A stretch of DNA of 39,557 nucleotides, taken from assembly GCA_903825445.1 (NCBI GenBank), contig CAIKAS010000119.1, forward strand, positions 1 to 39,557, written 5' to 3'. Position 1 is the stretch's first letter, and every line of letters starts with the position of its first letter. The stretch comes from an uncultured Acidobacteriia bacterium. GTDB lineage: Bacteria; Acidobacteriota; Terriglobia; Bryobacterales; Bryobacteraceae. Under the pieces are notes generated by a model. It did no database searches, was not told where the DNA came from, and worked only from the letters and a program-made list of their open reading frames with translations. Positions 10,772 through 29,220 of this stretch are shown in pieces. The translations under genes and the position numbers were made by a program.

Positions 10772-11344
10772 TTAATAGGGTCGTTTGCCGACCCAATTGC
10801 CGGGCGGGTCGTATTCGCAGACCCATACCTGGCGGACTCCACCGCGAGCGAATGCGCACCCAACTTTCTTAGTGTCGTTCCAGACGATCTGAGTGTAGTG
10901 GCCGCAGACGCCACGACACGTGTTCGCAGTGTAATCGTAATACTTCGACTCACTGGCCCAATCGCGTACCACGTCTGACGGACGAGCAAGCGATCCTGTG
11001 ATCTCAAACAGATTACTGCCGTATTCTGATCGCGCGGGATGTTCGAACCTGCCACTTGTCAGCAGGTTTTCAGCCCAGCCCTTCGCCATGGCGGCCAGTT
11101 GATCGGACCACACCAGCGGGTTGGCGCCAACGCGCGCCCGCTCAGAGTTATGTGCGGCCAGAGCCTCGCGAGCGAGAGCGGCATCATTGGGGGTACCAGA
11201 ATCCGGCGTAGCCCTTCCTTCCGCTGGTTTCGGCGATGAAGATGTCGCTTGCGGAGGGTCCCCAAAGTGCCGCCACTGGGCCAGACAGGCTCCCCCCACT
11301 GCGGCAGCCAGGAACATCACAACTGCCAGCCGCTTAAGACTCAT
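10772..11344 (-). CDS. Secreted CAP (SCP/PR-1) domain protein
   Basis: 190 residues from the ATG at 11344, chosen because it opens directly on a signal peptide (MSLKRLAVVMFLAAAVGGACLAQ); TTG at 11392 and another ATG in between are possible but add a non-leader extension. After a Pro/Ser-rich linker the CAP domain runs from about residue 55 to the end, with the usual motifs: AHNSERARVGANPLVW, the helix with WAENLL, YGSNLFE, the HYTQIVWNDTKKVGCA motif (CAP1, with His-Tyr-Thr-Gln) and VWVCEYDPPGNWVGKRPY at the C-terminus. Two cysteine pairs probably form disulfides. Bacterial CAP proteins are extracellular and mostly of unknown function; lipid or sterol binding is known for eukaryotic relatives. 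It precedes the phosphoesterase gene by 115 nt on the same strand. Confidence 0.9.
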   Translation of the reverse strand: MSLKRLAVVMFLAAAVGGACLAQWRHFGDPPQATSSSPKPAEGRATPDSGTPNDAALAREALAAHNSERARVGANPLVWSDQLAAMAKGWAENLLTSGRFEHPARSEYGSNLFEITGSLARPSDVVRDWASESKYYDYTANTCRGVCGHYTQIVWNDTKKVGCAFARGGVRQVWVCEYDPPGNWVGKRPY

Positions 11345-11406
11345 ACCCCATTTGACGCATAGCAACGGCATCCCGGAGTCATGAAAATGCAATTTTTAAT
11401 CTCGGA

Positions 11407-12504
11407 TCACACTCGCCAGAACCACTTCCTCCGGTACATGGTGTATGCGATTGCGTACATCAGCAGCACGTAGGCGGCAGCGTAAAACAGCGAGGCGTTC
11501 GCAGGTGAGAAGTTCGGTACGAAGACAGCCCGGTAAATCGAAGTATGCCAGCCTGTTACCGACAATAGTTCATCGCCCAGTTCGGAGGCCATGTAGACCG
11601 CGATTGAATTCATCCCCATAATGACGGCGGGCCGCACATAGCGTTGGTAACCCAGATGATCAAACAGCCAGATGAACATGGCAAACAACACGAAATCGAG
11701 ACCGCCCATGAACAGCGAAAACGAACTCGTCCAGAGCTTCTTGTTGATGGGCAGCCAGATACTGCAAACCAGCCCCAGGGCGATCAGTGCGTTGCCGGAG
11801 AAGAACATCCACGTGACCCGCTCCGTCAACTGGCGTTGCACACGCAGTAGATGGCCGGCCATGACGCCGAATAAAGCGGTCGCGATGGCCGGGAGAGTGC
11901 TGACAATTCCTTCCGGGTCCCAGGTCTTGGTGGAGTGGTAATTGTGTGCGCCCAGCACGATGCGATCAATGTAGTGCGCCAGGTTGCCCTCCACATCGAG
12001 ATGGCCCGCGCCGAAGCTTGGCACCGGCACCAGGGTCATCAGCAGCCAGTAGATGACGAGCAGACCGACAAGCCACATCAGCTGCGCACGAACTTTGAAA
12101 TAGAGAAAGATCGCGACCGCGATGAAATAACAAATCGCAATGCGCTGCAGCACCCCAAGCAGGCGTTGGGTGGACAGATCGAGAGGGAAAGCATAGACGA
12201 TCAGGCCCAATACATAGAGAATCAGCGCTCGCCGTGCGGCCTGCAGCAGCAGCGTGGTTTTCGGAATACCAGCAGTGAGACGTGCGCCGAGCGACAGCGT
12301 GATGGCTACCCCTGCGATCCACAAGAATGAGGGGAAGACTACGTCCGTGATGGTCCACCCGTTCCAGGCGGAATGTTTCAGCGGCGCGTAGGAATAGTGC
12401 CCGTCGCCGGGGTCATTGACCAACACCATGAGCGCGATGGTGACACCGCGAAAAGCATCGAGGGAGACCAGGCGTTTGGTTTGGATTGAGTCAGGCTGAG
12501 TCAC
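11407..12504 (-). CDS. HGSNAT/NagX-like transmembrane acyltransferase (DUF5009)
   Basis: 365 residues, GTG start. The N-terminus RLVSLDAFRGVTIALMVLVN followed by WNGWTITDVVFPSFLWIAG is the hallmark of the heparan-alpha-glucosaminide N-acetyltransferase-like family, an acyltransferase-3 relative. About ten hydrophobic segments follow, including a Trp/Leu-rich pair and the final AAAYVLLMYAIAYTMYRRKWFWRV. Family members move an acetyl group from cytoplasmic acetyl-CoA to an amino sugar across the membrane, using a conserved His. The sugar acceptor here is unknown. It lies 62 nt upstream of the CAP gene on the same strand and diverges from the small exported protein with 50 nt between starts. A TATCAT hexamer 15 nt before the GTG is a possible -10. 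Confidence 0.83.
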   Translation of the reverse strand: MTQPDSIQTKRLVSLDAFRGVTIALMVLVNDPGDGHYSYAPLKHSAWNGWTITDVVFPSFLWIAGVAITLSLGARLTAGIPKTTLLLQAARRALILYVLGLIVYAFPLDLSTQRLLGVLQRIAICYFIAVAIFLYFKVRAQLMWLVGLLVIYWLLMTLVPVPSFGAGHLDVEGNLAHYIDRIVLGAHNYHSTKTWDPEGIVSTLPAIATALFGVMAGHLLRVQRQLTERVTWMFFSGNALIALGLVCSIWLPINKKLWTSSFSLFMGGLDFVLFAMFIWLFDHLGYQRYVRPAVIMGMNSIAVYMASELGDELLSVTGWHTSIYRAVFVPNFSPANASLFYAAAYVLLMYAIAYTMYRRKWFWRV

Positions 12505-12541
12505 AGTTAGTTCGTGAACATGATATCAGCGGGTCCCGCGA

Positions 12542-12547
12542 TAGACT
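12542..12547 (+). promoter_or_regulatory. Leaderless-type -10 of the exported hypothetical gene
   Basis: TAGACT lies exactly 7 nt before the ATG at 12555, and no Shine-Dalgarno is present. No recognisable -35 was seen. Confidence 0.4.
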
Positions 12548-12554
12548 GCTAATC

Positions 12555-13124
12555 ATGAGGTATCTGATCTGGACAGCCGGCGCACTGTTGACTGGCGTAC
12601 TGCTGCTGACAGCGGCGAATCCGGCAACCGGCCACGCGGCGAATGGCCGGGTGGAAGTATCCGCGTTGTTCATGGATGCGGTCGCAGTGAAGCAGGCCAC
12701 GGGCTCCGATTATGGCAACGCGTATACCGTAATCGAAGTGACGATAACGCCGAAAGACAAGCCAATTGACGTGCAGCCTGAAGATTTTCTTCTGCGGCTG
12801 AGTTCGGAGGCCGACAGCAGCGGACCCATGGCCGCGTCGCAGGTGCTCGGCGCGGGCGGTGGCCTCGTGGTCCACCGAGAACAGGAGAATGTAATCGGCG
12901 TGACGGGAACAAATCCCGCGAACGTCGGAATCTCAGTCGGCGACGGCGGCGCTTACGTCCCGCCGGCGCGAATTGCCGTACTTCAAAGCAGGATGTTGCA
13001 GGCGAAAACGACAGCGTCGCCCGTGTCGGGATTGCTGTTCTTCCCGTTTGCGAAAAAGAAACCGAAGGATCTGGACCTGGTTTACAGCACGCCCGGCGGC
13101 AAGCTGCATATCAGTTTCAAATAG
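12555..13124 (+). CDS. Hypothetical exported protein
   Basis: 189 residues. I chose the ATG at 12555 because it opens a signal peptide (MRYLIWTAGALLTGVLLLTAANPATG) and lies 7 nt after TAGACT, a leaderless-type -10; an in-frame start at 12486 would run through the divergent neighbour's start region. The mature part alternates beta-type segments (TVIEVTITPKDKPIDVQPEDFLLR, then a Gly-rich turn and VVHREQENVIGV), which resembles the immunoglobulin-like fold of DUF4352-type extracellular proteins, but I cannot assign a family. The C-terminal third has FFPFAKKKPKDLDLVYSTPGG, like the conserved end of such domains. There are no cysteines in the mature chain. It converges on the MFS gene with an 8-nt gap. 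Confidence 0.72.
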   Translation: MRYLIWTAGALLTGVLLLTAANPATGHAANGRVEVSALFMDAVAVKQATGSDYGNAYTVIEVTITPKDKPIDVQPEDFLLRLSSEADSSGPMAASQVLGAGGGLVVHREQENVIGVTGTNPANVGISVGDGGAYVPPARIAVLQSRMLQAKTTASPVSGLLFFPFAKKKPKDLDLVYSTPGGKLHISFK

Positions 13125-13132
13125 ACGGGAGA

Positions 13133-14452
13133 CTATTCCGTCGCGCGCGGCTTCCAGACGATCGGAGTAACAGGATCGATCTGAGTCCAAATAAAGAAAC
13201 CCGCAACGTAAACCGCGGCGCCCATGTAGAGCACGTAATCCCAGTTTCGGTGTGACGCCTGCAGCACCAGACCTGAAACCGTTCCGTACAGAGCCCCACC
13301 CGCATTGCCCACCATGTTCATAGTCCCCGCGACAGTACCCGAGTAACTGCCTGAAATATCCATGACGGTACCCCATGCGGCGGGCATCACCAGATCATTG
13401 CAGACACTGGAAAGCGCAATTGCGGATACAACAAAGTAGGGATCATGCAGCAGCGTGGCGAGGATCAAACAGGCGGAAGCACCTGCAAATCCAAAACAAG
13501 CCGACAGCTTTCGCGCTTTGCGAACGCTCCCGGTCCAGCGGGTCATCGGCTTTGCCATCATGCCGCACGTGATGGAGCCAATCCCGCCCATCAACAGTGG
13601 CAGCACTTTCAGGAATGTGCTGTGATTAACGTCCAGATGAAAACGTTCGTCGATAAAGGTGGGCGCCCATGTGATCAGGAAGTACCAGGTGAAGCTGACC
13701 GCGAAGTATTGCGCGCAGAGCAGCACCACAGTTTTCGACGCCAAAAGATCGCGCCACGGGAAGCCATGCGGCGCGGGCGGGGCGTTGTGTTTCAGCAGAT
13801 CGAGTTCGGCCTGGTTAACGGCCGGATTGTCACGCGGGTTATCGCGAAACCACCAGGCGAAGGCGACGGTCCAGAATATACCGAGGCAGCCAAATGCGGC
13901 GAACGCCAGACGCCAGTCCATATAGCGGAACAGTACGGCGATGATCAGGGGTGTGAATGCGCCGCCCCATCGGGAACTCATCCAGATAATGCCTTGTGCA
14001 CGCACGCGTTCCGTCTGCGGTAGCCAGATAGCAAAGGCTCGCGCGATATTCGGATAACAGCCCGCCTCGCCCGCGCCGAAAAGAAACTGAGTGATCCAAA
14101 GGGACGCGAAGTTCCACGCCCGCCCTGTCAGCGCCGTAAACACGGACCACCAGATCACGATGCGCAACAGGACATTGCGCGGCCCCATCCGGTCCCCCAT
14201 AAAACCGCTGGGAATCTCAAACAGCGCATAGGCCGTCGCAAAAGCCGTAAAGACCAGGCCCATTTGCGCGTCGCTGAGATGCAGCGCGGTGGCTACCTGC
14301 TTACGCGAATTCGAAAGCGCGACGCGATCGATATACGTCACCATGGACAGCGCGACCGCAAAGGCAACCACGCCGTGCCGAACGCGTGTGGGTTTCTCGC
14401 CCGAGCCGCCTGGCTGTTTGGGAGTCGTCTGATTCGTTGAAACAGAGGCCAT
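13133..14452 (-). CDS. MFS permease, anion:cation symporter (ACS) type
   Basis: 439 residues, ATG start. Twelve hydrophobic segments are visible. The first has MVTYIDRVALS and the loop between segments 2 and 3 holds GFMGDRMGPRNVLL, the major facilitator motif A (G-x3-D-R-x-G-x-R). Segment 4 has FLFGAGEAGCYPNIARAFAIW, and RVRAQGIIWMSSRWGGAFTPLI follows; together these match the ACS family (hexuronate, galactonate, phthalate and similar organic anions). The particular substrate is not readable. There is no Shine-Dalgarno; instead TATGAT lies 8 nt upstream of the ATG, in a back-to-back promoter arrangement with the GNAT gene. No catabolic genes for a hexuronate are adjacent, so the substrate gets no help from context. 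Confidence 0.87.
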   Translation of the reverse strand: MASVSTNQTTPKQPGGSGEKPTRVRHGVVAFAVALSMVTYIDRVALSNSRKQVATALHLSDAQMGLVFTAFATAYALFEIPSGFMGDRMGPRNVLLRIVIWWSVFTALTGRAWNFASLWITQFLFGAGEAGCYPNIARAFAIWLPQTERVRAQGIIWMSSRWGGAFTPLIIAVLFRYMDWRLAFAAFGCLGIFWTVAFAWWFRDNPRDNPAVNQAELDLLKHNAPPAPHGFPWRDLLASKTVVLLCAQYFAVSFTWYFLITWAPTFIDERFHLDVNHSTFLKVLPLLMGGIGSITCGMMAKPMTRWTGSVRKARKLSACFGFAGASACLILATLLHDPYFVVSAIALSSVCNDLVMPAAWGTVMDISGSYSGTVAGTMNMVGNAGGALYGTVSGLVLQASHRNWDYVLYMGAAVYVAGFFIWTQIDPVTPIVWKPRATE

Positions 14453-19030: not shown

Positions 19031-20014
19031 CTATTTCCCCTCTTCCACCCACGTGATCCCGGTCAGGCTGCCCTGCCCTGTAAGCAAAGTTCTGTTCCCG
19101 GAGCCATCCAGATTAGCGCAGTACACATTGCCACCCAGATCGGTGTAAAACATGCGACCGCCCTTCAGATCGAGAGCGATGCCAATGCCTTCTTTGAGGC
19201 CACCAGTCAGAATCTGCTGATCCTGCCGTTTTGTGGGATCAAAACCCGAAGGGGGGTCCATGGGAGCACGGCTGACGGTGTTGCCCCGGGGCGGATCGCC
19301 GCGGTCCGTCCAGTACATGACGCGGTGTGCAAGGTCGAGATCCATGTCTATGGGTTCGGGCAATCCGGCGAACAGCGTTTCGATATCGGTGCGGTTGAGC
19401 GGAGTCTGACCTTTCGGAATTTCCAGATTCGCGCGAAATACCCGACCGTTGCCGCCACTTCCTTTCTGTGTCCAATAGACCTTCCCGCCCGCGACGTCCA
19501 GCGCGATACCGACACACCAGTTCGTCGCATCTTTCCGCGCAGCATCCCCCTGCGCGGTTTCGACAAGCGTCTCTATATTGGAGCCATCGATATTGGCGCG
19601 CATGATGCGCATGCCTTCGCGATCGGACCAGTACAGCTTGCGATGCTGTGTGTCGAGCTTGAGTTGTTTCGGGGTCCAGGTACCGGCTTTCGGGACGATG
19701 GTGGTGAGATTACCGCCGTCCAGATCCGACTGTTCGATGGTGCCGTCGTTCGCGCTGACGTTCCCCATGTTGGTCCAGTAGATCTTCTTTGCGACGGTAT
19801 CGACAACGATTCCATCGGGACCAGCCGTACGGCCACTGAGAATCGTCTTAAGATCGGAGCCGTCGTCTTTCGCGGAGAGTACGCGGCCGCCGCCGGGTCC
19901 GCCAATACTGAGATAAAAGAGGCGCCCCCCCGGCGTCGGGACCGGCGCGTTTTCAGCCGCGAACAACACTGCGGAAAAGCCAAGAATGACGGCGGTCTTG
20001 TAGCGGAAAAGCAT
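19031..20014 (-). CDS. Exported YWTD-repeat beta-propeller protein
   Basis: 327 residues with a signal peptide (MLFRYKTAVILGFSAVLFAAE). At least five repeats of the LDL-receptor class B type are visible, each built on a Y/F-W/Y-T/S-D core: KIYWTN, KLYWSD, KVYWTQ, VMYWTD and MFYTDLGG. Six such repeats normally close one six-bladed propeller, which fits this length. The family is a protein or ligand-binding platform; no catalytic residues are apparent. The function is unknown. TATACT lies 9 nt upstream of the ATG and would give an mRNA with almost no leader. The previous gene on this strand ends 51 nt upstream. Confidence 0.8.
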   Translation of the reverse strand: MLFRYKTAVILGFSAVLFAAENAPVPTPGGRLFYLSIGGPGGGRVLSAKDDGSDLKTILSGRTAGPDGIVVDTVAKKIYWTNMGNVSANDGTIEQSDLDGGNLTTIVPKAGTWTPKQLKLDTQHRKLYWSDREGMRIMRANIDGSNIETLVETAQGDAARKDATNWCVGIALDVAGGKVYWTQKGSGGNGRVFRANLEIPKGQTPLNRTDIETLFAGLPEPIDMDLDLAHRVMYWTDRGDPPRGNTVSRAPMDPPSGFDPTKRQDQQILTGGLKEGIGIALDLKGGRMFYTDLGGNVYCANLDGSGNRTLLTGQGSLTGITWVEEGK

Positions 20015-20023
20015 AGTGCTGAC

Positions 20024-20029
20024 AGTATA
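20024..20029 (-). promoter_or_regulatory. -10 box of the YWTD propeller gene
   Basis: TATACT on the minus strand, 9 nt before the ATG at 20014; the -35 position holds only TTCCTC. A near-leaderless transcript is implied. Confidence 0.35.
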
Positions 20030-20065
20030 TGCCTGTTCGCCCCCGTGAGGAAGCCTCGCTTCACA

Positions 20066-21082
20066 CTACTTCAAGGGCGAAACGGCGTCAATGGCGAAAC
20101 CCGCCGTTACCGGTCCAACGCCTTCGACGGAATACACCGCGACTGGGCCGGAACCGGATAGCTGCTCCATGGCCACGGACCCGGCTCCGGGTGAAAGCAG
20201 ATACAGGCGCAGTAAAGTTGACGGTGTCCGCGGTGCTCCAGCGTCGCTCAGTGCGCGATCCAGTCGCTGAACTGCGAGCGCGGCGTCCTTTCCCCCAACG
20301 CCAAACGCAACCTGCGTACCTGTGAACGCGATGCGAGGCGCCACCAGACCACCGCCGCGCGACACACCTTCACAACTCGCCTCTGTTTGCCATGCAAGCC
20401 TGCGAGGCTGAACCAGGTTGGCTGCGGCTCCAGGGAATCGTGCGGTCACCATGCGGAGGAGTTCCGGCGCTTCGTCCAGGCCGCTGACGAAGCATGTAAC
20501 TGCAAGCGGAGGTCTGCCGTTCATTTTGGCTGCGAGATGGTCAATCGCCGTTTGGAGAAGCGCCTTCTGTTGAGTGCCCGGTTCGGTGGCGGAGACAATT
20601 TCAGCAGGATGGAATGTTACGCCATCTTTATTCACGGGCTTCTTGCCCAGCGACACGGTCTCGAGGACAATCTGTGCGTCGTTGAGGGTCAGGGCACCCG
20701 CCTGCAAAACACTGATGGAGGGCAGAGGGCCGTGCTTGTCACCCAGGACGTCGGCTACAATTTGCGGAATGCGACGGATGTCACCATTGCCCGCGGAAAA
20801 AGCACGGATATGGACAATTGGCGCGCCGCCGCTAAGCTTCAGGACCGCTTTGATCGCGTCCCGCGTCTGTTGCGACAGGAGCCCCTGACCCGAGAGTGGC
20901 GAAACGTGGAAGACGAGACGATCCACGTCGCCCACGGCAACCAGCGGTGGGTCCTTCGGGATAGCGAGCGTCTGGTTATTCTTGTCCTGCTCCGTTTTGA
21001 CCGGCGAGGGGGACCGTTGGGCAAAAAGAACAGCGACCGACAGCATGGCCGCAAAGCCTGTGAGTAAACGCTTGTTTGCCAT
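20066..21082 (-). CDS. Exported Rid (YjgF/RidA)-like domain protein
   Basis: 338 residues from the ATG at 21082, which has TTGGGGA about 6 nt upstream; a TTG 9 nt earlier is less likely. A signal peptide (ANKRLLTGFAAMLSVAVLFAQ) predicts export. Residues about 45-150 have the alpha/beta order of the Rid fold: FHVSPLSGQGLL, a helix, APIVHIRAFSAGNGDI, then LPSISVLQAGALTLNDAQIVLE, which takes the place of the conserved strand holding the RidA catalytic Arg. That Arg is not there. The second half (about 190-338) again looks like a Rid-type unit but is more diverged. Cytosolic RidA hydrolyses enamine intermediates; an exported version lacking the Arg probably does something else. The family call rests on fold-like motifs and is moderate. 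Confidence 0.55.
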   Translation of the reverse strand: MANKRLLTGFAAMLSVAVLFAQRSPSPVKTEQDKNNQTLAIPKDPPLVAVGDVDRLVFHVSPLSGQGLLSQQTRDAIKAVLKLSGGAPIVHIRAFSAGNGDIRRIPQIVADVLGDKHGPLPSISVLQAGALTLNDAQIVLETVSLGKKPVNKDGVTFHPAEIVSATEPGTQQKALLQTAIDHLAAKMNGRPPLAVTCFVSGLDEAPELLRMVTARFPGAAANLVQPRRLAWQTEASCEGVSRGGGLVAPRIAFTGTQVAFGVGGKDAALAVQRLDRALSDAGAPRTPSTLLRLYLLSPGAGSVAMEQLSGSGPVAVYSVEGVGPVTAGFAIDAVSPLK

Positions 21083-21136
21083 GGTCCCCAAGAATGAATT
21101 CTATCGGGGCATTCACGGTCGCTTCGTTTCAGAGGT

Positions 21137-21631
21137 TCAGACTAGCTGCCGGGCAACGTCCGCATCCTCGGTGCGTCCGCGCAGAACGGTGATCCAGAAG
21201 GACCCGTCCGCGCACTGAAAGGCCATTCGCTCCAGAACTTCCGTACCTGGGATCCGGAAATGGTAAGCGCCTCCATCCACCACAGAAGGAATGCCAAGCT
21301 GTATCCCCGATGGCAAGAGACACTTCAGGTTTCCGCCGATCATATTGGCCAGTTCGGCGAGCGCATCCCGCACGTCGTCGTCGACTCTTCCCGGCGGATC
21401 CATGGAGAGAAGGCGTCCCGCAAAACGACACGCCTGCTCGGCGCCGCAATCCACCAGCAGCGCACCATTCCAGGCACCGGTCAGATGGACACCAGAGGTC
21501 AATTGATTCAGGTCCGGGCACGATGGTGTCCCGCCCTGGCTCACTTCCAGGCCCAGCATGGTTCCGAATACGGACTCCACTATCTGTGCAACGTCGCCCG
21601 GCGGTATTTCGATACTCGAATTAGTCAGCAT
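21137..21631 (-). CDS. cheX: CheX-like CheY-P phosphatase
   Basis: 164 residues, ATG start with AGGAAAA 8 nt upstream. The active-site helix of CheC/CheX phosphatases is present once: E93-x2-N96 in LAELANMIGGNLK, with GN at 100-101. One such helix and a C-terminal beta-rich half (FRIPGTEVLERMAFQC) point to CheX rather than two-site CheC. It removes phosphate from the response regulator, ending the signal. Last gene of the chemotaxis-type operon, 14 nt after cheR. No CheZ or CheD is present, so this would be the main phosphatase. The downstream Rid-like gene is 54 nt further and probably not part of the operon. Confidence 0.85.
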   Translation of the reverse strand: MLTNSSIEIPPGDVAQIVESVFGTMLGLEVSQGGTPSCPDLNQLTSGVHLTGAWNGALLVDCGAEQACRFAGRLLSMDPPGRVDDDVRDALAELANMIGGNLKCLLPSGIQLGIPSVVDGGAYHFRIPGTEVLERMAFQCADGSFWITVLRGRTEDADVARQLV

Positions 21632-21645
21632 GGGTTTTCCTCGTT

Positions 21646-22479
21646 TCAGCGCGCCACATAGACAGTAGCGTTTCCTTCAGACTTCCTGTCGAACCACTCA
21701 TCGACGCCGAACGCAGTTTCAGCGCCTCCCAACAGCAGCCAGCCACCGCGGAACAGCGTGCCGTGGATTTCTTTCGTTATTTGTTTCTTTGTCTCAGCGT
21801 CGAAATAGATCATGACGTTACGGCAGAACACCAGGTCGAAGGGACCCAGTGCGCGCATGCTCTTCCGGAGGTCGATGGTCTCGAAGCTCACCATCCGACG
21901 CACCGCCTCACTCAACTGCCATTCCACACCGGCACGGCGAAAGTGTTTCACCTGCAGGATGGCGGGCAGACCGCGGTTCACTTCGATCTGCTGAAACTTG
22001 CCTGTTCGCGCTCGTTCCACAACCTGCGACGAAAAGTCTGTGCCCAGGATTTGTATATTCCAGTCGCCGAGTCCTTCTTCGAGAAGAAGCATGGCCAGAC
22101 TATAGGCTTCCTGTCCAGTCGATGCCGCTGCCGACCAGAAGCGGAGCCTTTTGGTATCTCTCCGCTCGTCCCTCAGGCGGGGGAGCAGGATGGATCGGAT
22201 GGCATCATAGTGGGCTGGATCGCGGAAGAAATAGGTTTCATTCGTTGTCATCGCCTCGGCAATCTGGCGCTTGACGTCTGGCTTGCTTGTGGCCTGAAGA
22301 AGCGCGCACAGATCATTAATAGAACCCAGGCCAAGTTGCCTGACGATTGGCGTCAGACGGCTTTCAAACAGGTAATGTTTATCCCCTTCGAGCACAATGC
22401 CCGTCTGGGAGTAAACATGTTCCTGAAGAAACCGGTAATTCTCCGAGTGAATCTCCATCACCGACGTTTGGCTAAGCAT
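21646..22479 (-). CDS. cheR: CheR chemotaxis protein methyltransferase
   Basis: 277 residues from the ATG at 22479, with AGAGGA about 6 nt upstream; the longer frame upstream has no start signal. CheR moves methyl groups from S-adenosylmethionine to glutamates on the receptor. The N-terminal helical domain (about 1-90) ends with TTNETYFFRD (78-87), the receptor-facing motif, and the Rossmann domain opens with FWSAAASTGQEAYSLAM (114-130), the CheR SAM-binding signature. FCRNVMIYFD is the usual motif around residue 215. There is no extra tail or pentapeptide tether. It lies 16 nt after cheB. Confidence 0.93.
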   Translation of the reverse strand: MLSQTSVMEIHSENYRFLQEHVYSQTGIVLEGDKHYLFESRLTPIVRQLGLGSINDLCALLQATSKPDVKRQIAEAMTTNETYFFRDPAHYDAIRSILLPRLRDERRDTKRLRFWSAAASTGQEAYSLAMLLLEEGLGDWNIQILGTDFSSQVVERARTGKFQQIEVNRGLPAILQVKHFRRAGVEWQLSEAVRRMVSFETIDLRKSMRALGPFDLVFCRNVMIYFDAETKKQITKEIHGTLFRGGWLLLGGAETAFGVDEWFDRKSEGNATVYVAR

Positions 22480-22495
22480 CCATTTCCTCTTATAA

Positions 22496-23629
22496 TCAGG
22501 CCGCCATGCGCAAAATTTCCGGCACGATTTGATCAAGCGGCAACACACGATCTGCGATCCCCGCATTCACTACAGCGCCTGGCATGCCCCAAACAACACT
22601 CGAGGCCTCGTCCTGCGCGAGGATACTGGCGCCCAGGGCCTTGAGAATCTCCGCCCCTCGCAACCCGTCCTGTCCCATGCCGGTCATGATCGCGGCGATG
22701 GCCGCGCCGGCATAAACTTCTCCGATCGAGGCAAATAGCGCATCCACCGCGGGGCGGCACGAATTCTGGGGCGCCGCCTGATCCAGACGCACGAACACGC
22801 CGCCGCCGTTTTGCATCACTTTCATGTGAAAGTCCCCTGGCGCAATCAGAATGGTGCCCGGCTCAAGCGACTCACCATCACTCGCTTCCCGCACAGGCAA
22901 CTTGCACAAAGTGTGAAGGCGCTCTGCGAGCAACCGCGTGAAGAGCGGCGGCATGTGCTGCACCACAAGAATCGGTAGCCGGAATCCGGCTGGAATCTCC
23001 GGCAGGATCGCGCCCAATGCAGTTGGTCCCCCCGTGGAAACGCCGATCACCACTACTTTGGGCCGTAGCTTTGAGCCTTGAAACGATCGCTGTAATCCGG
23101 GCACGCTCACAGGCGACGGCCGAGCAATCGACGGGGTCGTTGGGATCGGCGAAGGCGCAGTTCCAATTGCGGCGCCGGTTTGTCCTGGCAGACGGAAGAA
23201 CTGTTTGATTCTGGGCACAAGTTCTTCCCGAAGACGCGTCATTGAACGCTCGAGCGATCCTTCATTAGAGACCTTAGCCAGATAATCATCTGCCCCCAGG
23301 GTTAATGCCTCCAGAGTTACTTCGGCCCCGCGTGCGGTAAGCGTGCTGAACATGATGACCCTCAGATCGGGGTATTCGCGCCGGACGCGACGGAGAGTTT
23401 CGAGGCCATCCATTTCGGGCATTTCGATGTCCAGTATCAGAACGTCAGGATTGAGCTGCGGAATCCTCTGCAGTGCTATCACTCCATTCGAAGCCGATCC
23501 TACAACTTCGAGCAAGGTATCTTCTTCGAGGGCATGGGCGACCAGACGGCGGATGACGACTGAATCGTCTACCACCATCACCCGAATCCGCTCCCCTGCC
23601 TGGAGCAATCGCCTGTTCGCCGCAGCCAT
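22496..23629 (-). CDS. cheB: CheB chemotaxis-specific methylesterase with receiver domain
   Basis: 377 residues, ATG start with AGGGAA about 6 nt upstream. The N-terminal receiver has the acidic pair D21-D22 and phosphoacceptor D67 in ILDIEMPEMDG. A proline-rich linker spans about 145-190. The C-terminal esterase holds the catalytic triad: S198 in GVSTGGPTAL, H225 in VVQHMPP and the Asp in MTGMGQDGLRG near residue 320. It removes methyl groups from the receptor (and may deamidate glutamines) when phosphorylated by CheA. It is between cheY and cheR with 12 and 16 nt gaps, so it is within the operon. Confidence 0.94.
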   Translation of the reverse strand: MAAANRRLLQAGERIRVMVVDDSVVIRRLVAHALEEDTLLEVVGSASNGVIALQRIPQLNPDVLILDIEMPEMDGLETLRRVRREYPDLRVIMFSTLTARGAEVTLEALTLGADDYLAKVSNEGSLERSMTRLREELVPRIKQFFRLPGQTGAAIGTAPSPIPTTPSIARPSPVSVPGLQRSFQGSKLRPKVVVIGVSTGGPTALGAILPEIPAGFRLPILVVQHMPPLFTRLLAERLHTLCKLPVREASDGESLEPGTILIAPGDFHMKVMQNGGGVFVRLDQAAPQNSCRPAVDALFASIGEVYAGAAIAAIMTGMGQDGLRGAEILKALGASILAQDEASSVVWGMPGAVVNAGIADRVLPLDQIVPEILRMAA

Positions 23630-23641
23630 TCCAGTTCCCTC

Positions 23642-24016
23642 CTAGAAGGAGACTCCGGCAAGCAGCAGCTTGTCCAGAAGTATGTCCTTCGTGAACGGCT
23701 TCATGACATACTCATTAGCTCCGGCTTCGAGCGCGGTTACCATCTGATCGACTTCAGTCTCGGTAGTAACCATCACGACCTTCATCGCCACGTTTGCCGG
23801 GTTCTGGCGCAAGCTCTTGAGCAGGTCGAGGCCATTCATCTCAGGCATGTTCCAGTCCGCCAGAACCAGAGACACGTCGGTCGGCTCGGCCGCGAGCACT
23901 GCGAGAGCTTCCCGCCCGTTACCCGCCTCGCGGACCTCGCACCCAAGCTCCCTCAAAGTTCGGGAGAGAATCATCCGGACGACTTTGGAATCGTCCACCA
24001 CCAGCGCTTTGATCAT
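23642..24016 (-). CDS. cheY: CheY-like single-domain response regulator
   Basis: 124 residues, a stand-alone receiver without an output domain. All catalytic positions are intact: D8 and D9 for magnesium, D54 in LADWNMPEM, T84 in VTTET and K106 in MKPF. It would be phosphorylated by the CheA of this operon and carry the signal to its target, a flagellar motor or another machine such as type IV pili; no motor genes are in the window, so the output cannot be decided. It lies 17 nt after the receptor gene and 12 nt before cheB. Confidence 0.92.
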   Translation of the reverse strand: MIKALVVDDSKVVRMILSRTLRELGCEVREAGNGREALAVLAAEPTDVSLVLADWNMPEMNGLDLLKSLRQNPANVAMKVVMVTTETEVDQMVTALEAGANEYVMKPFTKDILLDKLLLAGVSF

Positions 24017-24033: not shown

Positions 24034-26043
24034 TCAGAACGTAAACGTCGAAATTACCGTCTGCAGCCGGGCCGCCATTTGGCTCAGCTCCTGCGATGCT
24101 TTCTGTGTGTCGTTAGCACCCTGCGTGGTATTTTTCGCGGCAACGGCCACCCCGTTGATGTTCCGCGCAATCTCGCCGACTCCTTTGGAGGCCTCGCCCA
24201 CGCTGCGGCCGATTTCATTAGTCGTCACAGTCTGTTCTTCCACCGCAGAGGCGATGCTGTTGGAGATGTCGTTGATCTGGGTAATAATGGTTCCAATCTC
24301 CTCGATAGCCTTGACGGCGCCTTTGGTATCGCCCTGAATTGCGTCGATCTTACGGCCGATATCCTCAGTGGCTTTGGCTGTCTGCTTGGCGAGTTCCTTT
24401 ACTTCGTTGGCGACAACTGCGAAGCCCTTACCCGCCTCGCCTGCCCGAGCGGCTTCAATCGTGGCGTTGAGTGCCAGCAGGTTGGTCTGCTGCGCGATGG
24501 ACGTAATCACCTTGATCACGTTGCCGATCTCCTGGCTCGATTCGCCCAGCCTTTTTACCGTTTCGTTGGTGGAGTGCGCCACGCTGACGGCATTCTTGGC
24601 CACACGAGCGGATTCATTGGCATTCTTGGAAATCTCACGGATCGATGCCTGCATCTGCTCGGAGGCGGACGCCACCGAGGCGACGTTTTTCGAGATCTCC
24701 TCGGAAGCAGCCGACACTACGTTCGCCTGAGTCGCGGTCTCTTCCGCGTTGCTTGCCATCTGCTGGCTTACGGCCGTTAATTCTTCGGCGGAAGAAGCGA
24801 GCGTCGTCACGTTTTGCGCCGTGACTCTGAGGGGTTCCACGACCGTATCGAGGGTCCGGTTGATGCCCTCGACAATCCTCCGGAAATCGCCGGGATGTCT
24901 GGAGGCGTCGGCACGGGTACCAAGCTCCCCGTCAGCTGCTGCCCTTCCCAGTGTGTCCGTGTCGGAAATCAAAGCTCTCAGGTTGGTCCGGACTTGTTCA
25001 ACCGTGTCGTTGATAAAGGCTTTTTTGCCGGGGAACCTTTCGAGTTCAGCTTCAAAATTGCCTTTGCCGAATTGGGAAACGCAAGCCATGGCTTTCTTTG
25101 TTACGACCAAGTGTCCCTGAACCATGTGATTCACCGCCGAGGCCATACCGGCAAACGAACCAAGAAGTTTCTCCGGTGCGATAGTGACATCGGTGTCCCC
25201 TCGGTCGTGCTGGTCAGACATATGTTGCATCGCCTCGATGAAACCGTCCAGCTGCGTGTTGATCGCCTGTCGGATTTCGCCAACCTGTTCGGCTTTGTCT
25301 CCGGCTGAACACACGTCGTCCAGTCGAATTCCGGCAGCCACGAGCATCTGCTCCAGAGTGTTGAGCATGAATGCATCGCCGATCGCCTGAAGGTCAAGAT
25401 TGCAAACCCGGCCGACCGCAGCCTCGATTTCCCGTACCCTGTCTTCGTCGGCGATATCCCTCCGCAGATACTGCCCGACCAGCCGCTGAAATTCCGCATA
25501 AGAGCCGACTTGCCACTTGAGCGGCAGATTGAATCTGTCGCTCACCGAGCCAACCTGCAGACGTTTCTCGAAATAGCGGCTGTCCCAATTGATCAAGGCA
25601 CCGGCGAAGACCTCAGTGAAATACGCCGTCTGGGCCGCTTCGAGGTGCTTGCGCAGAGCGGCCAGGGGCATCCCCTTCCCAACGGCTATCGATTCAAAAA
25701 ACTGGCGCGTCGGGGGGAAGTCAAACTGCCAGTCATAGAACTCCCGGGCTATATCCGCCGCTACACTCTGTGCCCACGGCGCCAAATCTGCGAGCAGGGC
25801 GGCGTCGCCCGGGCCGAGACGAATGAATTGCCGTCGCGCGGAGAGACTCTGTTCGTCCATGCCGTACCGGCGGGCGATAGAATCGGCAGCACCCGCCGAG
25901 GGCCAATTCACCTGCACAGCGGCGTATCGAGCCGGCGCGGCGACCCGTGGCAAGTCGGCCACTGCGGCTCCGCCACCTTTAGCGCTGCGGCCTGCATTCG
26001 AAGTGCCGTTCGATTTACCGTTCGTCTTGTTTGTCATGTTCAT
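24034..26043 (-). CDS. Soluble globin-coupled chemotaxis receptor lacking the heme-ligand His
   Basis: 669 residues. The ATG at 26043 is taken as the start, though the GGAG upstream fits the second ATG (26037) equally well. After a low-complexity tail (about 1-30), residues about 55-215 are a globin-coupled sensor domain, with [11 protein letters not shown] and [10 protein letters not shown] in the right places. Residues about 270-440 are several HAMP-like units, and 440-669 is the MCP signalling domain with the [26 protein letters not shown] hairpin type tip. There is no membrane segment, so it is cytoplasmic. In HemAT-type sensors a His in the segment SIHLRIGLLPKW binds heme; here the equivalent is S168 in [14 protein letters not shown]. 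It is the only receptor in the operon. Odd points: the missing ligand and multiple HAMP units. Confidence 0.9.
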
Positions 26044-26056
26044 ATCTCCAGATTTC

Positions 26057-26605
26057 TTAGCTGCAATGAGCCGGCTCAGGCCCAGTGACCGGCAGCGGTC
26101 CTCTGAGGGCGGTCTGCGGGGCGACACCCGGTGCGCTCCCCACGGTAAGATCCACAGTCCGCTCGGCATCCAGAATCAGCAGAAGCCGCCCGTTCAGCTT
26201 GTGCACGCCACGAATTAGTTCGCGGCTGGCGAGATTCAAATTGTCCGGAGGGCGTTCCCAGGTAGCCGCGTCTACGTCCAATACGTCACCGATCTCGTCC
26301 ACCAGCAAACTCACGGGGCCATCCTCGGTTCGGACCACAACATTAATGGACGTCTGCTCTCCGACGCGCGGCGCCAGCCGAAGACGGCGTCGCATATCAA
26401 TAGCGGCCACTATCTGGCCGCGCAAATTGATCAGCCCCTCGATGACGTCCGGTGCCTGGGGCACGCGAGTCATCTGCTGGGGGAGCAATACTTCCTGCAC
26501 ACGGAGAACATCCACACCCAAGAACAGTTCCGCCACGAAGAACGTGGCGAACTGGCCACTAGTCCGCGCCAGTTCGGATCTCAAGGTCGTTGTTTCGCTG
26601 CGCAT
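26057..26605 (-). CDS. cheW: CheW coupling protein
   Basis: 182 residues from the ATG at 26605, with AAGGGAAA 7 nt upstream; the frame is open further upstream but inside cheA. The CheW fold is clear: [23 protein letters not shown], the hydrophobic turn [28 protein letters not shown], then [24 protein letters not shown] and the [10 protein letters not shown] ending. It links CheA to the soluble receptor. The last 25 residues are Pro/Ala-rich and extend past the usual fold. It begins 2 nt after the cheA stop and ends 13 nt before the receptor gene. Confidence 0.92.
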
Positions 26606-26607
26606 GG

Positions 26608-29220
26608 CTATTTCCCTTCCCCCGCCCAGGCCGGGGTGGGTTCGCATGGAGCAAGGTGCGAAGCAAGGCGCGAAACGGATTGGAGCATAGCTTCCTGATC
26701 GAACTTCCTCTGGCAATCCTGGAATCCCGCCGTGCGGAAGGCTGCCGACTGAGTCTGCTCACCAGAGTTAGCCAACGCGAGAACCGGGATGCGAGCCCAC
26801 TCCGGACGCTGGCGCATAGCTGCAAGCAGGTCGGAACCGCCGTTAAGCGAGAGGTCGAGCGCCGCTACAACGACATCGACCGATTGCTGCTCCAGACCCC
26901 GAATTGCTTCATCGAGATTCCCCGCCTCGAGTACCCGATAGCCCGCCATGTCCAGTTCGTTCCGGATCAGGCCGCGCGAAAAGGCCGACGCCTCGGCAAC
27001 GAGGATACGTTTCCCTTTGACAGATTCGCCGCCGTCCTGAAGCCAATACTTCGTCGCATTCATGACGTATTGGAGATCGATAAAATCCGTGACCCGATTG
27101 CCAATCACGGCCGAGCCAAGCAGTCCCTTGCGCGTGGATCGCTGCCTCGCCTCTGCCGCTTCTTCAACAACATCCAGAATTTGATCGACCACCATGCCAA
27201 CACTGCGATCGCCATCGTTAAATACCACCACCTGCAGAGGATCTGCCTGCTCGCTTCGATCCATAATGCGGGATTCCAATACATCGGCGAGAGGGACCAA
27301 AGGGAGAATGCGATCCCTGTATTGCACTACCTGGCTTCCGCTGGCATGTTCGATGGAGCTTGCTGGAAATTCTTCGAGCCTGGCGACCAAAGAGAGTGGA
27401 ACGGCAAGCCGTTCGAAGGAGCCAGACCGGAACAGAAGCAGCCGTTGCAGTTCCACGTCCGACTGCGTCTTTTGTTCCGCTGCCGCCCGAGTCTGTTCAT
27501 GCAGTTCGGTCAGCACGCCGGAGCACTTGCCGACGCCGAGCACGTCCAGAATGAGTGCCACCCTGCCATCACCCATAATGGTTGATCCGGCATAAAGCGA
27601 GAGGCCCTTCAGTTGCTTACCCAGGGGCTTAACAACAATCTCCTGAGTATCGTTAATGCCGTCCACCACGAGGCCAAACTGCCGGTCTTCAGCCTGAAGA
27701 ACCACCAGATTGACGGCCCCGGTTTCAGCGGACTTCAGACCGAGCACCTGGTTCAGGTAAGCAATTGGAAGCAGACTCCCCCGCCGCCGATACACCGGCG
27801 TTCCGTGCACGTGCTCAATTTGCTTTTCATCGGAGTCGCGCTCCAGCCCAATCAATTCGATCAAACTGACCTGAGGGATGACGAACCGTTCGCCTCCGCT
27901 CGTGATGACGAGGCCCGGAATAATGGCCAGAGTGAGCGGGATCTTGAGCTTGATCGTGGCGCCTTCGCCTGGGCGACTGAAGATATCGACGCCGCCGCCG
28001 ATTTTTTCAATGTGGGACTTTACTACATCCATGCCCACGCCGCGCCCGGACAGGTTCGTCACGGCTTTCGCAGTCGAGAAGCCGGGCTCAAAAATCAGGT
28101 TCAGCGTTTCACGATCGGTCAGCTTTTCAGCTTGTTCGGGACGAAGCAGTCCTTTCTCAATCGCCTTTTGTCTGACACGCGCGACATCAATCCCCGCGCC
28201 GTCGTCGCCGATTTCAATATTGACCTGACCTCCTTCGTGATAGGCACGCAGAGTGAGTCTCCCCTGGGGCGACTTCCCCGCACGCATACGGACATCGGGC
28301 AATTCAATGCCGTGATCGCACGAGTTTCGAACCAGATGGACGAGCGGATCTTTGATAGCCTCGATAATGGTCCGGTCAAGTTCCGTCTCGGCGCCATCCA
28401 TTTCCAAATGAATCTGCTTCTGCAGCGCTACAGCCATATCGCGAACAACGCGGGGCAACTTGTTCCAGACCATGCCGATGGGCTGCATTCGTGTCTTCAT
28501 GACACCTTCCTGCAGTTCGGCTGTGATCAGATTCAGACGCTGTGACGCTGAATTAAGTGCCGCGTCCTCGCGTTCTGTGGTGAACTGGAGGATCCGATTG
28601 CGCGTCAGCACCAGTTCCCCAACCAAATCCATGAGTTTGTCGAGCAATCCTACCCCAACGCGAATGTTCGCGTCGGCGACATGTGAAGACTTGGCTGCGT
28701 CTTCGTCAGGTACCCTCGCGTCGACGCTCTCAGAGACGATAACCGAAGGTTGTTTTGCAGACGGAGGTAGTGGCGCAGCCGCTGACGCGGATAACGGTTT
28801 AGCGGACTCTGGCTGCTTCTCCGGCGCAGGACCTAACTGCGCCGCCGCGTGCAAACGTGCGATCAAGTCGTCCAGGTGGTCCGGGCCTTCCTCTCCGCTG
28901 GCTTCAATCTGCGCCAGTACCTTTCGAGTGGCGTCTACTGTGTCGAGGACCAGAGATACCAGAGACGGAGTGAGTTCCCGCTTGCCGTCGCGCAACTGGC
29001 TCAGCAGGGTCTCGGCGTGGTGTGTAAGTCGTTCCAGAGCTGAGAACGCCAGAAAACCGCACGTGCCCTTGATCGTGTGAAATGTGCGGAAAATACTTGC
29101 GAGCAGAGCCGCATCTTTCGGGTTCTTCTCAAGCACAACGAGATCCTGGTCCAGGCGCGCGAGGTTTTCATAACTCTCCACCAGGAATTCACGGATCAGT
29201 TCCTTATCTTCCTCTTGCAT
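26608..29220 (-). CDS. cheA: CheA histidine kinase with two CheW-like domains and a degenerate receiver
   Basis: 870 residues, ATG start with AAAAGG 5 nt upstream. Domain order: Hpt (1-105, phospho-accepting H48 in RTFHTIKGTCGF), an Ala/Pro-rich linker in place of a recognisable P2 (about 125-185), dimerisation and HATPase (about 190-440; N box HLVRNSCDHGIE, G1 DDGAGID, G2 SGRGVGMDVV), CheW-like domain (about 445-580), a second CheW-like domain (about 595-735), and a C-terminal receiver fold (about 745-860). The receiver lacks the phosphoacceptor: where Asp should stand, eight residues before the NG turn, there is Ala, and the acidic pocket is AEAS rather than DDS. So it is a hybrid kinase with a probably unphosphorylatable receiver. 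It is the first gene of the operon and diverges from pdxR. Confidence 0.94.
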   Translation of the reverse strand: MQEEDKELIREFLVESYENLARLDQDLVVLEKNPKDAALLASIFRTFHTIKGTCGFLAFSALERLTHHAETLLSQLRDGKRELTPSLVSLVLDTVDATRKVLAQIEASGEEGPDHLDDLIARLHAAAQLGPAPEKQPESAKPLSASAAAPLPPSAKQPSVIVSESVDARVPDEDAAKSSHVADANIRVGVGLLDKLMDLVGELVLTRNRILQFTTEREDAALNSASQRLNLITAELQEGVMKTRMQPIGMVWNKLPRVVRDMAVALQKQIHLEMDGAETELDRTIIEAIKDPLVHLVRNSCDHGIELPDVRMRAGKSPQGRLTLRAYHEGGQVNIEIGDDGAGIDVARVRQKAIEKGLLRPEQAEKLTDRETLNLIFEPGFSTAKAVTNLSGRGVGMDVVKSHIEKIGGGVDIFSRPGEGATIKLKIPLTLAIIPGLVITSGGERFVIPQVSLIELIGLERDSDEKQIEHVHGTPVYRRRGSLLPIAYLNQVLGLKSAETGAVNLVVLQAEDRQFGLVVDGINDTQEIVVKPLGKQLKGLSLYAGSTIMGDGRVALILDVLGVGKCSGVLTELHEQTRAAAEQKTQSDVELQRLLLFRSGSFERLAVPLSLVARLEEFPASSIEHASGSQVVQYRDRILPLVPLADVLESRIMDRSEQADPLQVVVFNDGDRSVGMVVDQILDVVEEAAEARQRSTRKGLLGSAVIGNRVTDFIDLQYVMNATKYWLQDGGESVKGKRILVAEASAFSRGLIRNELDMAGYRVLEAGNLDEAIRGLEQQSVDVVVAALDLSLNGGSDLLAAMRQRPEWARIPVLALANSGEQTQSAAFRTAGFQDCQRKFDQEAMLQSVSRLASHLAPCEPTPAWAGEGK

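Follow-up and report, generated by a model that had tools for sequence, protein, structure and literature searches.

A chemotaxis-operon globin receptor of an uncultured Acidobacteriota bacterium has probably lost its proximal heme ligand in a single lineage

In globin-coupled sensors the proximal histidine is the ligand of the heme iron. A che cluster of an uncultured Acidobacteriia bacterium encodes a globin-coupled chemoreceptor with a serine in place of this histidine, which raises the question of whether the ligand is truly lost, whether such a loss is a family trait, and what a receptor of this kind may still do. The stretch of DNA analyzed (hereafter the window, 39,557 nucleotides) is a single contig, C119, from a 6.27 Mb assembly that comprises 364 contigs and has a contamination value of 9.2; its best-matching contig records are from Acidobacteriota, many of them named Bryobacterales or Bryobacteraceae.

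The receptor gene (24034..26043, minus strand) was delineated by its ORF, Pfam matches, upstream sequence and hydropathy as a cytosolic chemoreceptor of protoglobin-HAMP-MCP type. Its longest ORF reaches position 26169 and overlaps cheW; as this longer frame runs into cheW, the start is probably the ATG at 26043 or 26037, both with GGAG immediately upstream. Counted from M43 of the longest ORF (residue 1 in the receptor numbers S168, Q178 and H133 used below), the protein has 669 aa, and its frame is open without stops. The hydropathy maximum over 19 aa is 1.11, with no transmembrane-like stretch, so the receptor should be cytosolic. The N-terminal sensor globin domain (203 aa, 25300..25908, minus strand; the extent used in alignment A1, supported by Pfam, AlphaFold2 and Foldseek) matches Protoglobin (PF11563) with 75.9 bits against a curated cut-off of 25. 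It is accompanied by a HAMP_N3 domain (24976..25104, minus strand) and by an MCP signalling domain (24136..24627, minus strand; PF00015, 122.1 bits), which makes the protein a member of the MCP family and within which we recognized what we take to be the hairpin-tip motif.

The surrounding genes, all on the minus strand, form a cluster in the order cheA-cheW-mcp-cheY-cheB-cheR-cheX according to ORFs and Pfam: cheA (26608..29220), cheW (26057..26716 as the listed ORF, within which the true start probably lies further inside), cheY (23642..24016), cheB (22496..23629), cheR (21646..22566) and cheX (21137..21631). Both the MCP domain of the receptor and its che partners are intact by Pfam, and the cluster contains no other MCP gene, in agreement with the first-pass annotation of this DNA, which had called the receptor the sole one of the operon. 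The CheA of the window has two CheW-like stretches and a C-terminal receiver (REC) domain beyond the usual Hpt, dimerisation and ATPase domains. Downstream of cheX (19031-21091, minus strand) lie two ORFs, one with an Ldl_recept_b match and one with no Pfam match.

The same annotation had drawn a gap-free alignment with the heme-contact segment of HemAT, in which the proximal His becomes S168 and the following Tyr becomes Q178, and all of this held, including frame, residues and coordinates. When aligned by HMMER with four sensor globins of solved structure (8h17, 5ohe, 2w31 and 1or4), the serine falls opposite their histidine, and no gap lies nearby. The counterparts in HemAT (1or4) are His123 for the serine and Tyr133 for the glutamine, and in HemAT Tyr133 is a partner of His123. 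At these two columns the A1 numbering, used below, happens to coincide with that of HemAT (proximal His, 123; Tyr, 133). The serine (residue 123; 25540..25542, minus strand) is encoded by AGC versus CAT or CAC in the relatives printed, and the glutamine (residue 133; 25510..25512, minus strand) by CAA versus TAC or TAT, so that each codon is at least two base changes away from those of the relatives. The distal side is retained: Tyr58 (25735..25737, minus strand), which aligns with HemAT's distal Tyr70, and Gln93 (25630..25632, minus strand), in the E helix opposite a histidine of 2w31, are each identical in 28 of the 28 other rows of A1. Thus, of the residues that mark a heme-based globin-coupled sensor, the window has the distal Tyr, and in helix F it has Ser in place of the proximal His.

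To place this change within the family we collected 30 non-redundant globin domains besides that of the window, from 80 loci, 61 genomes and 237 genomes; a partial match starting past the proximal column (L154) stands outside this set. The proximal column is His in 30 out of 30, and no second Ser was found among these 30 rows. The expectation of the first-pass annotation that orthologues with the same che neighborhood would share the Ser therefore failed, as these orthologues keep His. The HemAT Tyr133 column is Tyr in all 28 rows that accompany the window in A1, and Val in one row outside A1 (L092). Within the family, 26 of 237 genomes, that of the window among them, carry the domain, as do 17 of 80 loci retained out of 337 contig candidates. 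Among its closest known counterparts are His-bearing che-cluster receptors of Acidobacteriota (L019, L084, C181 and others), with domains up to 76% identical to that of the window and in many cases with the same cluster order. Among 19 non-redundant loci with His-bearing globin receptors, 14 show cheA in view, 13 of them in the order cheA, cheW, mcp and one (L007) with the receptor before cheA. Other receptor types also occur in the corresponding slot of related genomes: PAS receptors in L015, L017, L020, L021 and L023, and in L025 a receptor consisting of HAMP repeats only (Pfam at 0.001), without a recognized N-terminal sensor. In L007 a sensor-less poly-HAMP MCP (11176-13185) lies beside the globin receptor.

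At 34 columns conserved in at least 95% of rows the window departs at two, which are exactly the proximal His and the following Tyr. The number of departures is not unusual (four other full-length rows also have two, elsewhere). A similar picture emerged at 91 positions common to the eight closest relatives, where the window has six private changes: H123S, I126F, F130L, Y133Q, K157R and F169C. As the relatives have from one to seven private changes each, the number is ordinary, but the placing is not, with four of the six falling within residues 123-133 (hypergeometric P about 0.001; P 0.04 for two of four when the two reported residues are excluded). For a wider stretch, 119-135, the corresponding values are P 0.003 and, without the two reported residues, P 0.07. 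The accompanying residues are Phe126 (TTC, 25531..25533; Ile in 26 and Val in two of the 28 others), Leu130 (CTC, 25519..25521; Phe in the eight closest relatives, Leu in four of the 28 others) and Cys169 (TGC, 25402..25404; Phe in 26, Leu in one and Met in one of the 28 others), all on the minus strand. Judging from their closeness to the His in sequence, we infer that the private changes face the heme site. In this lineage, then, replacement of the proximal His by Ser and of the following Tyr by Gln would have been joined by further changes nearby in sequence. Errors of assembly or sequencing, in a bin that resembles a metagenome, would be a trivial source of such a pattern, and the fragmentation and contamination of the assembly given above leave some room for it. 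We consider this source very improbable: both key codons differ by two or more bases, there are four further private substitutions, the frame is preserved, and the gene lies within a contig of 39.6 kb whose che cluster is intact.

A sensor that has lost its ligand could be on its way out. Under such a scenario heme sensing was dropped with no replacement and the globin is disappearing, as in the relatives without a recognized N-terminal sensor; the HAMP-only receptor of L025, in the same slot, and the HAMP-only MCP next to the globin receptor of L007 could be regarded as its end points. The domain, however, is not visibly decaying by sequence and model. Its end branch measures 0.19, within the range of the eight other clade members (0.083-0.28; this clade, and the place of the window next to L019 and L005, have weak support in the tree). 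A dN of 0.16-0.22 separates it from its eight closest relatives, synonymous sites being close to saturated. It keeps 32 of the 34 near-invariant columns. An AlphaFold2 model of the A1 domain has a pLDDT of 94.7 and a pTM of 0.89, and all 13 PDB matches found by Foldseek at E ≤0.001 are sensor globins (8h17, 5ohe, 5ohf, 2w31, 1or4, 1or6 and 9dsf; TM by target length 0.76-0.88), 8h17, 2w31, 5ohe and 1or4 among them confirming the sensor globin fold. Ordinary branch length and dN, the open frame and the confident fold all speak against decay, which we regard as improbable.

Could another residue hold the iron? The domain might still bind heme, with the iron held by Tyr58, by H133 or by an external ligand that occupies the vacated proximal position, and the receptor might then sense redox state, NO, CO or heme. 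Retention of Tyr58 and Gln93 in all A1 rows is in line with this reading, and Tyr58 might ligate ferric heme. The first-pass annotation had named H133 (residue 88 of A1; 25645..25647, minus strand) as a candidate alternative ligand. This residue lies in the E helix, and different alignments give different answers as to whether it points toward the iron. Opposite it are Arg in 8h17 and Lys in 2w31, with no gap in either alignment between H133 and the following invariant Tyr, while in the HemAT alignment it stands opposite Thr95 (own residue count of HemAT), two residues before a four-residue gap, a position more favorable to the idea. The column is His in 19 of the 28 other A1 rows, and all 19 also have the proximal His. 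H133 as a substitute ligand is therefore possible but unconvincing. In the alignment to 2w31 it is Gln93 that stands opposite a histidine, which we take for the HisE11 named in the title of a paper. There are precedents for unconventional coordination: a globin is known in which the proximal and distal sites have changed places (PMC4476040), and rhizobial sensors with Glu at the proximal position (F8) were modelled as still holding heme (PMC4648194). On the other hand, a His to Ala change at the proximal position abolished function in two receptors, HemAT and Atu1027, the latter requiring His100 (PMC10851874). On balance, heme held by another residue appears unlikely, though less so than decay.

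The window receptor need not be the sole input of its cell, as the bin holds a second che cluster and further MCP genes. This second cluster seems to be split between two contigs. C181 carries cheA, cheW and a globin receptor that has the proximal His and is truncated by the end of the contig; C260 carries an MCP tail, cheY, cheB, cheR and cheX. GC content and tetranucleotide correlation, used as a composition check on bin contamination, failed to separate C119, C181 and C260, and the second cluster may come from a contaminating organism.

Published sensor globins already include some that lack the proximal His, rhizobial ones among them. HemAT of Bacillus subtilis (1or4/1or6) resembles the window receptor in its N-terminal sensor globin, cytosolic location, MCP output and fold match, and differs from it by having His123 and Tyr133 where the window has Ser and Gln and by the lack of HAMP domains between the globin and MCP domains (PMC7542364). 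Its globin domain binds ethanol with heme taking no part (PMC7542364), and its pocket residues are treated in PMC13401364. Among rhizobial globin-coupled sensors 21 have Glu at F8, an assignment that the authors thought might be an alignment artefact while citing earlier reports of other F8 residues (PMC4648194); a profile alignment of the four Glu loci described below supports it at the sequence level. Like the window receptor these sensors have a proximal residue other than His, and several of their genes lie near chemotaxis genes, but their Glu is common to many species whereas the Ser of the window was seen once (PMC4648194). To the extent that the four Glu loci are representative, rhizobial che clusters start with the receptor gene, unlike that of the window.

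Another parallel is Atu0514 (MCP514) of Agrobacterium fabrum, compared here by its description, a cytosolic protoglobin-HAMP receptor of 514 aa at the cell pole (PMC8466855) for which three conserved globin residues are reported missing (PMC10851874). It is the only receptor of the Agrobacterium che operon, and its loss weakens responses to four different chemicals, for which the authors argue for team signalling (PMC8466855). The window receptor shares with it the Protoglobin-HAMP-signalling architecture, the status of the only MCP gene of a che operon and the missing globin residues, in another phylum and another operon. RsbR domains of Bacillus stressosomes are non-heme sensor globins, one of them crystallized with a fatty acid, which have lost both the proximal His and the distal Tyr (PMC4976288). 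The window shares with them the sensor globin fold kept after loss of the proximal His; it differs in keeping the distal Tyr (Tyr58) and in having HAMP and MCP domains rather than STAS output in a stressosome. Moreover, the RsbR loss is clade-wide while that of the window concerns a single lineage inside a His-bearing family. Among the papers listed in literature searches on this loss, none dealt with it in Acidobacteriota; as far as searched, the Acidobacteriota case and the single-lineage change inside an otherwise His-keeping family are new.

To assess how often the proximal column varies more widely, Protoglobin was sought in 396 Acidobacteriota genomes (match in 40, own included) and in 299 genomes from the phylum of a Paraburkholderia record, L058 (match in 86). 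The alignment included 42 of 48 Acidobacteriota rows and 111 of 115 rows of the second phylum (row totals by our own count). Dropped were L193 (not aligned), the two rows of the window itself and pieces of one gene (G519), and six weak rows (G626, G412, G912:C32, G853, G692 and G864) were left out; some redundancy persists, L179 and L196 being one gene and L232 and L237 overlapping. Of the 153 loci aligned, 139 have His at the proximal column, four Glu, three Arg and two Met, with one each of Thr, Ser, Ala, Leu and a gap. Pfam identifies the rows with Glu, Arg, Thr or Ser as Protoglobin-MCP proteins (the Ser row, L263, at 31.4 bits), the Thr row L185, also an MCP, having been entered in the MCP count by hand because its locus was cut; the Ala row (L311) gave no Protoglobin match at 0.001 and is doubtful. 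At the four Glu loci (L312, L313, L314 and L315) the receptor heads a che cluster and is followed by cheY, cheA, cheR, cheB and cheY; each has His at the HemAT Tyr133 column. Their open frames of 580-590 aa with no HAMP match at 0.001 make them only partly alike to Atu0514 (514 aa, with HAMP). Three of the four Glu genomes (G697, G907 and G761) encode, at another locus, a globin MCP that keeps His and shows no cheA within the stretch seen, much like the Atu0514 and Atu1027 pair of Agrobacterium. The Thr receptor of another Acidobacteriota genome (L198, 5866-7257, minus strand) has Glu at the distal Tyr column and is the only MCP of a cheW-cheR-cheW-mcp-cheA-cheB cluster. The three Arg rows (L318, L319 and L320) are globin MCPs that all come from genome G817, and the stretches fetched around them contain no cheA. 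Only three plasmid records turned up, with distant globin sensors.

Two generalizations were tried on this survey and rejected. The first, that ligand loss is tied to location in a che cluster, found no support within the fetched stretches (5.5 to 20 kb, some ending at contig ends): 6 of 11 His-less receptors (the window and the doubtful L311 included) versus 15 of 33 His-bearing ones were so located (P 0.73), 13 of the 15 having cheA above 100 bits and two (L327 and L345) being assigned by eye at contig ends. The second, that diguanylate cyclases never lose the proximal His, unlike chemoreceptors, was suggested by a first count, since withdrawn, of 10 His-less rows out of 43 with MCP versus none out of 36 with GGDEF (P 0.0015), the latter recognized by what we assumed to be the GGDEF motif. 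Pfam confirmed all 37 rows with this motif as GGDEF proteins (36 with His and one with a gap) and found GGDEF in seven more His rows, but His-less GGDEF proteins were found as well. The Met and Leu rows are of diguanylate-cyclase types with Protoglobin scores around the cut-off of 25: L268 (Leu, 24.5 bits) has GGDEF, L195 (Met, 24.1 bits) has it by way of L199 (1136-2608, plus strand; diguanylate-cyclase type, weak Protoglobin, Met at the proximal column), and L194 (Met, 27.9 bits) has a weak DosC-type middle domain in a cut sequence. With these three counted, P ranges from 0.016 to 0.19 by the choice of rows, related rows not being independent. Of the 70 His rows of other output, 10 carry reductase domains and look like flavohemoglobins rather than sensors.

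Overall, we somewhat favor, from sequence comparison and the structural model, a lineage-specific loss of the proximal heme ligand in a still-folded input domain, with fold and distal residues kept. As to the suggestion of the first-pass annotation that the receptor binds no heme, binds it in another way or senses something other than oxygen, the conservation of the Ser that was to support it is absent (0 of 30), but its core stands: a sensor globin that is otherwise intact but lacks the proximal ligand as well as the Tyr after it is unlikely to sense O2 through heme in the ordinary way. We infer that the domain most likely carries no heme able to serve in O2 sensing, and hence that the receptor has ceased to be a HemAT-type aerotaxis sensor. 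What it does instead is a matter for tentative ranking. The most likely role, though one we would put at below even chances, is by analogy to Atu0514 that of a heme-free dimerizing input cap, the receptor entering the array formed by the CheA and CheW of its own cluster and supporting other receptors; the lack of a link between ligand loss and che-cluster location counts against this picture. Next comes, as a more speculative option, binding of another small molecule in the emptied, more polar cavity. Retention of Tyr58 and Gln93 is odd for a cavity that is not used. Along the same line, one lineage of a His-bearing family might have remodelled its cavity on the proximal side to suit a ligand other than heme, with the distal residues and signalling chain left in place, and if so, the Glu, Arg, Thr and Ser receptors in unrelated genomes would represent repeated outcomes of this kind.

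Globin receptors are readily annotated as oxygen sensors. The window receptor, together with the published rhizobial Glu cases, argues against inferring aerotaxis from a Protoglobin match alone, and side by side with its His-bearing relatives, one of them in the same bin, it provides a ready comparison for the part that heme plays in receptor signalling.
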